From: Dromiciops gliroides
Lineage: Eukaryota > Chordata > Mammalia > Microbiotheria > Microbiotheriidae
Length of the DNA: 64,000 nt
Assembly: GCF_019393635.1 (NCBI RefSeq)
Contig: NC_057861.1
Coordinates: 78,685,327 to 78,749,326 of the forward strand
Direction of reading: 5' to 3'
Shown in pieces: positions 30,782 through 32,287 of this stretch. Within the stretch, counting starts at the first letter, position 1. Each line of letters opens with the position of its first letter. The notes below the pieces were generated by a model that was given only the letters and a program-made list of their open reading frames with translations, did no database searches and was not told where the DNA came from. The position numbers were made by a program, and so were the translations under genes.

Positions 30782-32287
30782 TTAAGCAGTCAGAATTTGG
30801 GGTATGCCACATTGTTTCAACTGGTTCTCCAATTCTGTGCATGTCAAAGTGGCAGGGGTTTCTGAATTGTCATTAATTTTTCTAATGCTATCATAATGTT
30901 CTTTATGGTAGAAAATGTGGAGTTCTCTAGCATCAGTTTTGTCTGTGCCACTGATTTTCAATAGGGGCTGATTTAATTGATGAACCACCACATTCAGCTG
31001 ATGCTGCTTAGCAAATGCTACAATCATATCATTTCCTCCCCACTTTCCAAGTTGTTTCAATTCATTAACATATTCTTCAAAAGGAGAGTCATTCTTTGTA
31101 AAAGACTCAAAATCAGTTCTATGGTTAAGCATATAAGAAGCAGATTCTTGTCTGTGTCTGAGATGATTCCTACAGTGACCTTCTAGCTGATCTGCTAAGG
31201 CCCTAAAAAGGCAATTTCCATCTCCTGATACTTTACGAAGACTGAGTCCCAAAGCATTTAACTGATCAGTGGGATTATCAAATGGGAACTGCCTATTTCC
31301 TCTGAACTCTCTTTGCTCTTTAACAGTTGCTATCATTAGGGTTTTTAGCTCTTTAGTGTCTACCTCAGGTCTATCTGAAATCTCTTCACCTACGCATGGT
31401 GCAGGCTTTACATGAGAGCAATGAATCCATGAGTCTTTTTCACCAATTTTAATGGCAGTAGGAGTTGTCAATAATACCTGAAAAGGTCCTTCCCAGGCAG
31501 GTTGGGTTCCACTGGTTCTCTGAAAATTCTTTACATATATTTTATCTCCTGGGTTGAAGTTATGCAATGAAAAGTCTAATGGTCCTGCCTGGACCACAGC
31601 TCCTGCCTCATGGAGTTCATGTAGCCTGGTCTGTAATTCCTGTATATAGGAAGCAACAGAAGTATCACCTCCCACCAGTGATGTATAAACTGGGGGAAAA
31701 GTTTTAGCTTGGATAGGAGGGTGACCAAAAAGCATTTCATAAGGAGATATATGAAGTTCTCTTCTTGGTCTACTGCGTAGATAGAATAATGCCAATGGTA
31801 GAACATCAGGCCATTTCAAATGGGTTTCAGTACATAATTTGCCAATCATACTCTTAAGCTCTTTATTCATACGTTCGACTTGGCCTGAACTTTGTGGATG
31901 GTAGGGCGTGTGGAATTTTGGAGTCACTCCCAAGAAAGAGTAGATTTGGGATAAAATCGAATCAGTGAAATGTGTGCCTTTGTCAGAATCGATGCGGGCT
32001 GGTGGGCCAAAACGAGGTACTATCTCTTTAAGAAGAATTTTGGCAACAAAAGCAGCTGTGGCTCGGGGGCTGGGAAATGCCTCTACCCACCGAGTGAGCT
32101 GATCAACTATAACAAGGCAAAATTTATAATGTCCTGCTTTTGGCATAGTAATATAATCAATTTGTAAGTGCTCAAAAGGTGTATATGCTAGAGAACGCCC
32201 TCCATAAGCTTTGGCCTTAAAAGCATACTGATTATAAGACTGACATGTGGAGCAGCCCGAGCAGATTCGAGATGCTGTATTAGTCAC
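30782..32287 (-). CDS. ERV-A integrase fused to an OTUD3-like OTU deubiquitinase domain
   Basis: A continuous 501-codon frame. It opens with the end of the integrase zinc region (RICSGCSTC). The catalytic core has D (LQIDYI), D (IDSDKGTHF) and E (GQVERMNKEL). A gammaretroviral C-terminal domain follows (WEGPFQVLLTTPTAIK, WIHCSHVKPAP). After a linker of about 60 residues it continues without a stop into an OTU domain from about residue 354. The catalytic Cys block is SGDGNCLFRAL (Cys 359, codon 31213-31211), followed by GGNDMIVAFA and the catalytic His block EHYDSIRKIND (His 464). The wording is closest to cellular OTUD3, a deubiquitinase. The frame ends GIPQILTA. Upstream pol is separated from this frame by a frameshift near 32375. 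I infer the OTU part is a captured host domain. Enzyme activity is not shown. Confidence 0.88.
   Translation of the reverse strand: MTNTASRICSGCSTCQSYNQYAFKAKAYGGRSLAYTPFEHLQIDYITMPKAGHYKFCLVIVDQLTRWVEAFPSPRATAAFVAKILLKEIVPRFGPPARIDSDKGTHFTDSILSQIYSFLGVTPKFHTPYHPQSSGQVERMNKELKSMIGKLCTETHLKWPDVLPLALFYLRSRPRRELHISPYEMLFGHPPIQAKTFPPVYTSLVGGDTSVASYIQELQTRLHELHEAGAVVQAGPLDFSLHNFNPGDKIYVKNFQRTSGTQPAWEGPFQVLLTTPTAIKIGEKDSWIHCSHVKPAPCVGEEISDRPEVDTKELKTLMIATVKEQREFRGNRQFPFDNPTDQLNALGLSLRKVSGDGNCLFRALADQLEGHCRNHLRHRQESASYMLNHRTDFESFTKNDSPFEEYVNELKQLGKWGGNDMIVAFAKQHQLNVVVHQLNQPLLKISGTDKTDARELHIFYHKEHYDSIRKINDNSETPATLTCTELENQLKQCGIPQILTA

Follow-up and report, generated by a model that had tools for sequence, protein, structure and literature searches.

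An OTUD3-like OTU domain in frame behind the integrase of a class I endogenous retrovirus in Dromiciops gliroides

Main finding

A stretch of 64,000 nucleotides from Dromiciops gliroides (contig NC_057861.1, forward-strand positions 78,685,327 to 78,749,326; the whole stretch is called the window and positions are counted from its first letter) was analysed for an open reading frame that joins a retroviral integrase to an OTU domain, a domain of proteases that remove ubiquitin. We found this frame to be part of a class I (gammaretrovirus-like) endogenous retrovirus (ERV), here called provirus A, and its OTU domain to resemble that of the cellular protein OTUD3. There is good evidence that a retrovirus captured an OTUD3-type coding region and kept it as an in-frame domain behind integrase, as an earlier sequence-only reading of the window had proposed. 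The strongest evidence for the capture, which that reading had overlooked, is the presence of the same junction in an older provirus of the window (provirus B). Also, the OTU domain was under purifying selection during the divergence of the two proviruses.

The integrase-OTU frame

The frame occupies 30782-32287 on the minus strand and encodes 501 residues with no stop, running from an integrase core through a C-terminal domain of the murine leukaemia virus (MLV) type into the OTU domain. Pfam identified the core (rve, 1.2e-15) at 31895-32182 of the minus strand, which are residues 36-131 of the integrase piece, and the MLV-type domain (MLVIN_C, 1.7e-17) at 31400-31564 of the same strand, where the GPF motif reads WEGPFQV. 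The acidic residues D44, D102 and E138 of the 307-residue integrase piece are all present, with 35 residues between the last two (DD35E). In the final 194 residues of the frame Pfam found OTU (PF02338, 4.5e-14). The closest solved structure to this piece by sequence is OTUD3 (4bou, E 6.4e-59), followed by OTUD5 (3.5e-9), and the part matching 4bou lies at 30842-31270 (minus strand). An AlphaFold2 model built from a 28-row alignment (mean pLDDT 79.4, residues 1-24 below 50) also gave 4bou as the first match in Foldseek (E 5.1e-19, rmsd 1.5 Å over 138 columns), so the predicted fold agrees with the sequence match. The motifs SGDGNCLFRAL and EHYDS are both intact in provirus A. The predicted catalytic Cys (C52 of the 194-residue piece, codon at 31211-31213) and the predicted catalytic His (H157, codon at 30896-30898), both on the minus strand, are invariant in the 28 rows, and the role of the Cys is assigned by homology to Cys76, which cellular OTUD3 requires (PMC10566363). 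The frame stops 19 residues past the stretch matching solved OTUD3, and no UBA domain was found in the 194-residue piece by Pfam at E up to 0.01. The E-values, the predicted structure and the recurrence of the junction in a second provirus together exclude chance and confirm that the integrase-OTU frame is real. Thus the unbroken frame, the D, D, E residues and the Cys and His motifs seen by the sequence-only reading were all found again, and the Pfam comparison that it recommended for the C-terminal part returned the OTU family.

Provirus A

The frame lies inside an element of 7876 bp (29139-37014, minus strand), delimited by a pair of long terminal repeats (LTRs), ACTC flanks and Pfam matches. 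Its 5′ LTR (36459-37014) and 3′ LTR (29139-29694), both of 556 bp on the minus strand with termini TGTGATG...CATCACA, differ at 7 positions (98.7% identity), and the 3′ LTR follows a purine-rich tract ending AAAGGGGGGAA. The target duplication ACTC is present at 29135-29138 on one side and at 37015-37018 on the other. Between the LTRs, also on the minus strand, are gag with the capsid (CA, p30) and one CCHC zinc knuckle (34963-35703; Gag_p30 1.1e-16, the knuckle by its pattern), the protease and reverse transcriptase of pol (33691-34899; RVP 1.5e-11, RVT_1 9.2e-25) and the connection/RNase H region (32578-33645; RNase_H 9.4e-20). A single stop separates gag from pro-pol in the same frame, which is the gammaretrovirus arrangement. 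Table 1 of PMC4299795 gives a 4-bp target duplication, GPF/Y behind the integrase core and one or two zinc knuckles as class I traits, and provirus A fits this class with its 4-bp duplication, GPF, one knuckle and a p30 capsid. Behind the OTU domain we scanned 7 of 8 open stretches of at least 38 residues in provirus A and 1 of 7 in provirus B, and at E-values up to 1 none of them matched an env family, the scan giving one unrelated weak match. A missing env is common among ERVs. At rates of 2.2-4.5e-9, the age of provirus A would be roughly 1.4-2.9 million years and that of provirus B roughly 8.6-17.5 million years.

Some other observations were made on the proviruses. The primer binding site of provirus A (36430-36458) begins TTTGGCAACCACGAAGGGAT, which resembles the complement of the 3′ end of a tRNA-Arg, and that of provirus B differs. 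The region 5′ of the capsid (35663-36163 in A and 46571-47044 in B, minus strand) encodes in both a stretch, 32% identical between them, that contains a strongly hydrophobic segment with Kyte-Doolittle means of 1.9 and 2.8 over 19 residues. This stretch looks like a membrane-anchored Gag N-terminus that would replace the usual matrix, for which Gag of intracisternal A-particles and glycoGag of MLV are comparison cases, and such an anchor would suit an env-less intracellular life. Older related elements of opposite orientation (27977-29138, 37015-37300 and 48270-49900) share the noncoding region behind the OTU domain, and from these repeat matches provirus A appears to have inserted into one of them. 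By tblastn no OTU domain was found in these elements, except for the insertion described below.

A second provirus with the same junction, and a third insertion with fragments

Provirus B (38689-47879, minus strand), identified by its similarity to A and by an LTR pair (38689-39225 and 47325-47879, 87.7% identical, ends read by eye), carries remnants of gag, protease, reverse transcriptase, RNase H, integrase and OTU in an order identical to that of provirus A. No matching flanks were seen by eye. Its integrase (41725-42638, minus strand) has 86% amino acid identity to that of A over 236 residues, and its OTU domain (41186-41700, minus strand) has 63% over 130 residues and 65% over 46. The linker between integrase and OTU can be aligned between A and B at the nucleotide level, with gaps. 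The OTU of B has one in-frame stop and one frame change, and its GDGNCLFRAL and HYDS motifs are kept.

A third insertion (C; 48594-49038, minus strand), recognised by its similarity to A, is of 445 bp, LTR-ended and has ATGG on both sides. Its start corresponds to the LTR start of A (54 bases, 92.6%) and its end is alike by eye. Inside it an OTU fragment (48740-48847; 108 nt, 96.3% identical to A) adjoins an integrase fragment (48707-48738; 32 nt, 93.8%). These two fragments lie side by side here and about 570 bases apart in provirus A, and the patchwork of LTR ends, OTU and integrase pieces looks as if template jumping had made it.

In the comparison made, the LTRs of A gave no match to those of B. 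Since A and C are each flanked by a target duplication of their own and the LTRs of A and B did not match, we read these as separate insertions of an OTU-carrying family and not as one local duplication. The possibility that A and B acquired their OTUs separately was considered and rejected, as the dS of OTU and integrase are alike, changed residues are shared and the two OTUs form one clade (see below).

Purifying selection on the OTU domain

Between the OTU domains of A and B the nonsynonymous divergence (dN) is 0.210 and the synonymous divergence (dS) 0.749, which gives a dN/dS of 0.28 over 129 codons with one stop codon skipped. The bootstrap 95% range is 0.14-0.47 and none of the 300 replicates reached 1. 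The N-terminal piece of the OTU gave a dN/dS of 0.20 (42 codons, dS 1.11). For the same pair, dN/dS is 0.114 in the integrase (dS 0.801, 228 codons), 0.15 in its N-terminal piece, 0.13 in RNase H (dS 0.59), 0.17 (dS 0.54) and 0.06 in the pieces of protease and reverse transcriptase, and 0.27 and 0.32 in those of CA (dS 1.12 and 0.98). The dS of the OTU thus falls within the spread of the other pieces, so that in this pair the OTU has about the same age as the other parts; together with the dN/dS of 0.28, the integrase-like dS places the OTU in the common ancestor of A and B, selected as a protein. It should be noted that the measure is raised because it includes the time that B has spent as a dead copy.

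We also looked at the columns in which at least 98% of 119 cellular OTUD3s agree (fixed columns). Provirus A keeps 82 of 105 such columns and B keeps 58 of 76, as against matches to the majority residue at 12 of 41 and 12 of 34 variable columns, a comparison that is biased as the ancestor may have lacked the majority residue at variable columns. Both copies depart at 14 fixed columns (3 of them outside the coverage of B) and share the new residue at 6, while a further 9 fixed columns differ only in A and 7 only in B.

These numbers also bear on the alternative that survives best, namely that the captured OTU was passive cargo or a tail of integrase with no enzyme function and that selection acted on folding or on an intact end of pol. 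A dN/dS above that of integrase and like that of the capsid is what this predicts, and the OTU of B now has a stop. Against it, provirus A retains the catalytic Cys and His and B retains both motifs, and the fixed columns have been kept far more often than the variable ones, with the bias just mentioned. We therefore consider this explanation unlikely, but it is the one to be taken most seriously.

Donor of the OTU domain and relatives of the integrase

Relatives in protein databases were taken from the best 120 of 339 matches for the OTU and the best 120 of 156 for the integrase. Nearly all the top relatives of the OTU in this set are vertebrate OTUD3s or unnamed entries resembling them. Identity to vertebrate OTUD3 is mostly 62-67% over 71-81% of the query, and 57-60% where the alignment covers at least 87% of it. 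Mammal, bird and reptile OTUD3s are alike in identity, the best (67%) being from a bird and a lizard. The top-scoring entry is an OTUD3 of Mytilus with 54% identity over 66% of the query, in which part of the domain is present twice. In the tree the OTUs of A and B form one clade (support 99/98). The sequence-only reading had expected a branch inside OTUD3; the common branch of the viral copies is clear, but its position among the OTUD3s is not fixed, as approximately unbiased tests reject none of five placements (marsupial, eutherian, mammal, monotreme, squamate; p 0.23-0.33). The free tree unites the viral OTUs with invertebrates at 75/88 on long branches; given an identity to Mytilus of 54%, we take this grouping to be long-branch attraction.

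Group-typical columns are noisy for placing the donor. Two of the four marsupial-typical states are present in B and none in A, a eutherian-typical Leu is present in both, and other typical states are found at 2 of 7 squamate columns in A and at 1 of 7 bird and 1 of 5 monotreme columns in B. On sequence similarity, therefore, the donor is best described as a vertebrate-type OTUD3 without assignment to one lineage. The flank AKEKRNQTEP of B resembles AKERRNRTEP of marsupial OTUD3, and the Thr in it is shared by the 5 marsupial OTUD3s of the compared alignment and by none of its other rows. From this likeness the copied stretch would seem to start in the basic N-terminal region of OTUD3. At the other end, the C-terminal tails of A and B are similar, and five host tails differ after the first few residues. 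The His loop is one residue shorter in both viral copies (YRYGEHYDS in the host, YHKEHYDS in A, YHNGHYDS in B).

The nearest integrase, with 75% identity, is from Monodelphis and ends inside the integrase, so it cannot show whether an OTU follows. Next come a metaclust protein (64%) and then turtles (52%). The turtle gene models as annotated end 35-38 residues past the integrase with no OTU; it seems, then, that the OTU was acquired after the turtle relatives had branched off. A marsupial host of the retrovirus is suggested by the nearest pol. This pol and the flank of B also speak for a marsupial OTUD3 as donor, and the group-typical columns and the like identity to mammal, bird and reptile OTUD3s speak against it. 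Searches of viral contigs with the OTU and with the integrase gave 0 loci each. No integrase domain was found in 26 longer OTU proteins (445-1417 residues, from 300 candidates) among the Pfam matches listed.

Seven long environmental (ENA) proteins (P0129, P0130, P0132, P0133, P0135, P0136 and P0138; 670-1196 residues) carry an OTUD3-like domain with 51-57% identity by blastp, and none has a significant match to the pol pieces. In P0130 a coiled-coil-like sequence was seen by eye ahead of this domain.

Proposed capture and its alternatives

Cellular OTUD3 is split by introns, and the OTU of provirus A is continuous. The capture is supported by the OTU being continuous and OTUD3-like, by its place between LTRs and target duplications, and by the recurrence of the junction in B and of fragments in C. 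We consider it quite likely that an ancestral class I ERV gained, directly behind integrase and in frame with pol, a copy of that part of an OTUD3 mRNA which encodes the OTU, and that the captured OTU took the place where env normally follows, the UBA tail not being retained. The element would then have kept replicating with the new domain, its protein being under purifying selection during the divergence of A and B.

Several observations weigh against this account. Integrase and OTU are seen together in two proviruses and one fragment, all within the 64-kb window, and no OTU was found in any of the best 120 of 156 integrase relatives. Provirus A is defective, with frame changes in gag and pol and an in-frame stop in pol, and being broken upstream of the fusion it cannot express integrase-OTU as Gag-Pol. 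The OTU evolves faster than the integrase (dN/dS 0.28 against 0.11), and third positions account for 46 of the 95 differences between A and B in the OTU compared with 82 of 123 in the integrase; this lower share indicates a real but weaker constraint on the OTU. Also, the OTU fragment of C compared with A gives a dN/dS of 0.91 over 36 codons, a value that shows no constraint and is what a dead fragment should give.

That A has this open frame in an otherwise broken provirus could mean that integrase-OTU is now a domesticated host gene. As A is young by the identity of its LTRs, an open frame needs no selection, and the copy in B is broken, which leaves domestication very improbable. It is harder still to believe that a processed OTUD3 pseudogene landed by chance in or next to a single provirus and has its open frame by accident. 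A continuous OTU whose nearest relative is cellular OTUD3 would agree with this, but the same in-frame junction is present in B and integrase and OTU fragments in C, selection has acted between A and B, and the minus strand has no run of 7 or more A in 30401-31500. The sequence-only reading had named a host OTUD3 copy inserted only here as the outcome that would overturn it, and the junction in B shows otherwise. A pseudogene lying beside the provirus was likewise rejected, the OTU being inside the LTRs with their target duplications and the junction recurring. Finally, Ginger1 transposases carry an OTU behind an integrase of the Gypsy/ERV type (PMC2836005), but a Ginger-like transposon, or an OTU taken from one, can practically be dismissed given the LTRs, gag, protease, reverse transcriptase and RNase H of provirus A and an OTU most like vertebrate OTUD3 in the 120 matches (a comparison that contained no Ginger OTU sequences).

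Proposed function

The pol of the intact virus would be made as Gag-Pol ending in integrase-OTU, so that each particle would carry a deubiquitinase either tied to integrase or cut from it. The frame fits such expression within Gag-Pol, as the sequence-only reading had assumed. The ancestral viral OTU probably cut ubiquitin. Removal of the UBA left the cleavage of Lys6 and Lys11 di-ubiquitin by OTUD3 unchanged (PMC3705208), so a bare viral OTU can be expected to work. Mutation of the His loop of OTUD3 (Arg178-Tyr-Gly-Glu) affected cleavage of Lys11 more than of Lys6 (PMC3705208); as this loop tunes chain preference, the shortened viral loop may change the choice of linkage relative to cellular OTUD3. 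The activity of OTUD3 also depends on acetylation of Lys129, from which SIRT1 removes the acetyl group on infection (PMC10566363). This Lys aligns to Gln in A and to Lys in B, and the Gln may be taken as a hint only.

As to the target, our first guess, tentative but quite possible, is that the OTU shielded integrase or the preintegration complex against decay that depends on ubiquitin. We favour it on two grounds: the OTU is joined to integrase in both of the diverged proviruses, and Ginger1 has fused the same kinds of domains. HIV-1 (human immunodeficiency virus type 1) integrase is degraded through TRIM33 and the ubiquitin-proteasome system (PMC6389893). On the other side, the infectivity of MLV was not lowered in cells deficient in N-recognins and MLV integrase N-terminal mutants made no difference (PMC3716682), results that weaken the idea for a gamma-like virus. 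The other guess, damping of signalling of the RIG-I/MAVS type, we place second as somewhat less probable. OTUD3 strips Lys63 chains from MAVS, RIG-I and MDA5 and suppresses RIG-I/MAVS signalling, and nairovirus and arterivirus OTUs inhibit innate immunity (PMC3968130); but OTUD3 also stabilises cGAS, an antiviral effect (both OTUD3 results from PMC10566363).

The widest form of the proposal may be possible, though we hold it as doubtful. In it, a retrovirus lineage of vertebrates (probably of marsupials) with no recognisable env would have evolved the first known retroviral deubiquitinase, giving integrase a ubiquitin remover in cis that is delivered with the integration complex, has its His loop reshaped and, in copy A, bears a Gln at the acetylation-switch Lys. 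If true, a retroelement would thereby have countered the control of integration by ubiquitin, and would have done so independently of Ginger1, whose proteins join the same two kinds of domain.

Other features of the window

Remnants resembling long interspersed elements (LINEs) lie at 3781-6601 and 13109-13789 on the minus strand. The first contains a reverse transcriptase (5055-5657; RVT_1 3.2e-21) and an endonuclease match below the cut-off (6074-6601), and the other frames in these two regions were judged by eye only. At 25501-27270 on the plus strand there are two leucine-rich open frames whose wording we take to be PRAME-like, for which no Pfam family passes the cut-off. Scans of the window for tRNAs and Rfam families gave 0 matches.

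Comparison with known systems

No retrovirus with an OTU was described in the titles and abstract openings listed by a literature search aimed at retroviral and integrase-linked OTUs, most subscription papers being outside its reach. To that extent it agrees with the sequence-only reading, which knew of no vertebrate retrovirus so described. The terms 'OTU' and 'ubiquitin' are absent from the main text of two papers on ERVs and gene capture (PMC4299795 and PMC11334065), and 'retrovir' is absent from the main text of a paper on viral OTUs (PMC3968130).

Capture of host genes by ERVs is itself known. In CrocERV31 (nectin3) and CrocERV29 (KIT ligand) a host mRNA has been copied into an ERV that is present in several insertions, with nectin3 replacing env and the KIT-ligand frames under purifying selection (PMC4299795). 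Similarly, in the present family a continuous host-type coding sequence lies between LTRs in more than one insertion (A and B, with a fragment in C). The crocodilian elements captured a ligand or an adhesion protein, whereas here an enzyme domain is in frame with pol directly behind integrase. An enzyme domain in this place is known from the dUTPase of ERV3, which is kept in some ERV lineages (PMC4299795); that one is a nucleotide enzyme of unclear origin in the ERV3 class, and the present one is an OTUD3-type, deubiquitinase-like domain in class I. Ginger1 likewise joins, within a single protein, an integrase that has a GPY/F motif to an OTU (or Ulp1) protease domain behind it, but Ginger1 elements are cut-and-paste DNA transposons with inverted repeats, CCGG/CCGT target duplications and no LTRs (PMC2836005). 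Provirus A has LTRs, an ACTC duplication, reverse transcriptase and RNase H. The OTU deubiquitinases of nairo-, arteri- and tymoviruses also place the OTU fold in a viral protein (PMC3968130), but these are RNA viruses with diverged OTUs, and entries of the nairovirus type are 13-22% identical to our model among the 50 matches listed. Cellular OTUD3 shares with the viral domain 57-67% identity (vertebrate entries, best 120 of 339 matches), the catalytic residues and the nearest solved structure, and differs from it in having a UBA and a longer His loop and in not being fused to integrase.

Gene capture by ERVs, dUTPase behind integrase and integrase-OTU proteins in DNA transposons were already known, and the present combination, in which the pol of a class I retrovirus has taken up an OTUD3 domain, appears to be a new variation on them. 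With this fusion, the host genes that ERVs have captured and kept under selection come to include an enzyme domain. Retroviruses manipulate host ubiquitin ligases, and the present findings suggest that in at least one retrovirus lineage the virus itself encoded a deubiquitinase. If the OTU is active, the family would provide a natural experiment, and one that can be dated, on whether integrase or the incoming viral complex is limited by ubiquitin, and a test of whether different mobile elements (Ginger1, some Helitrons and this ERV) have settled on the same answer.

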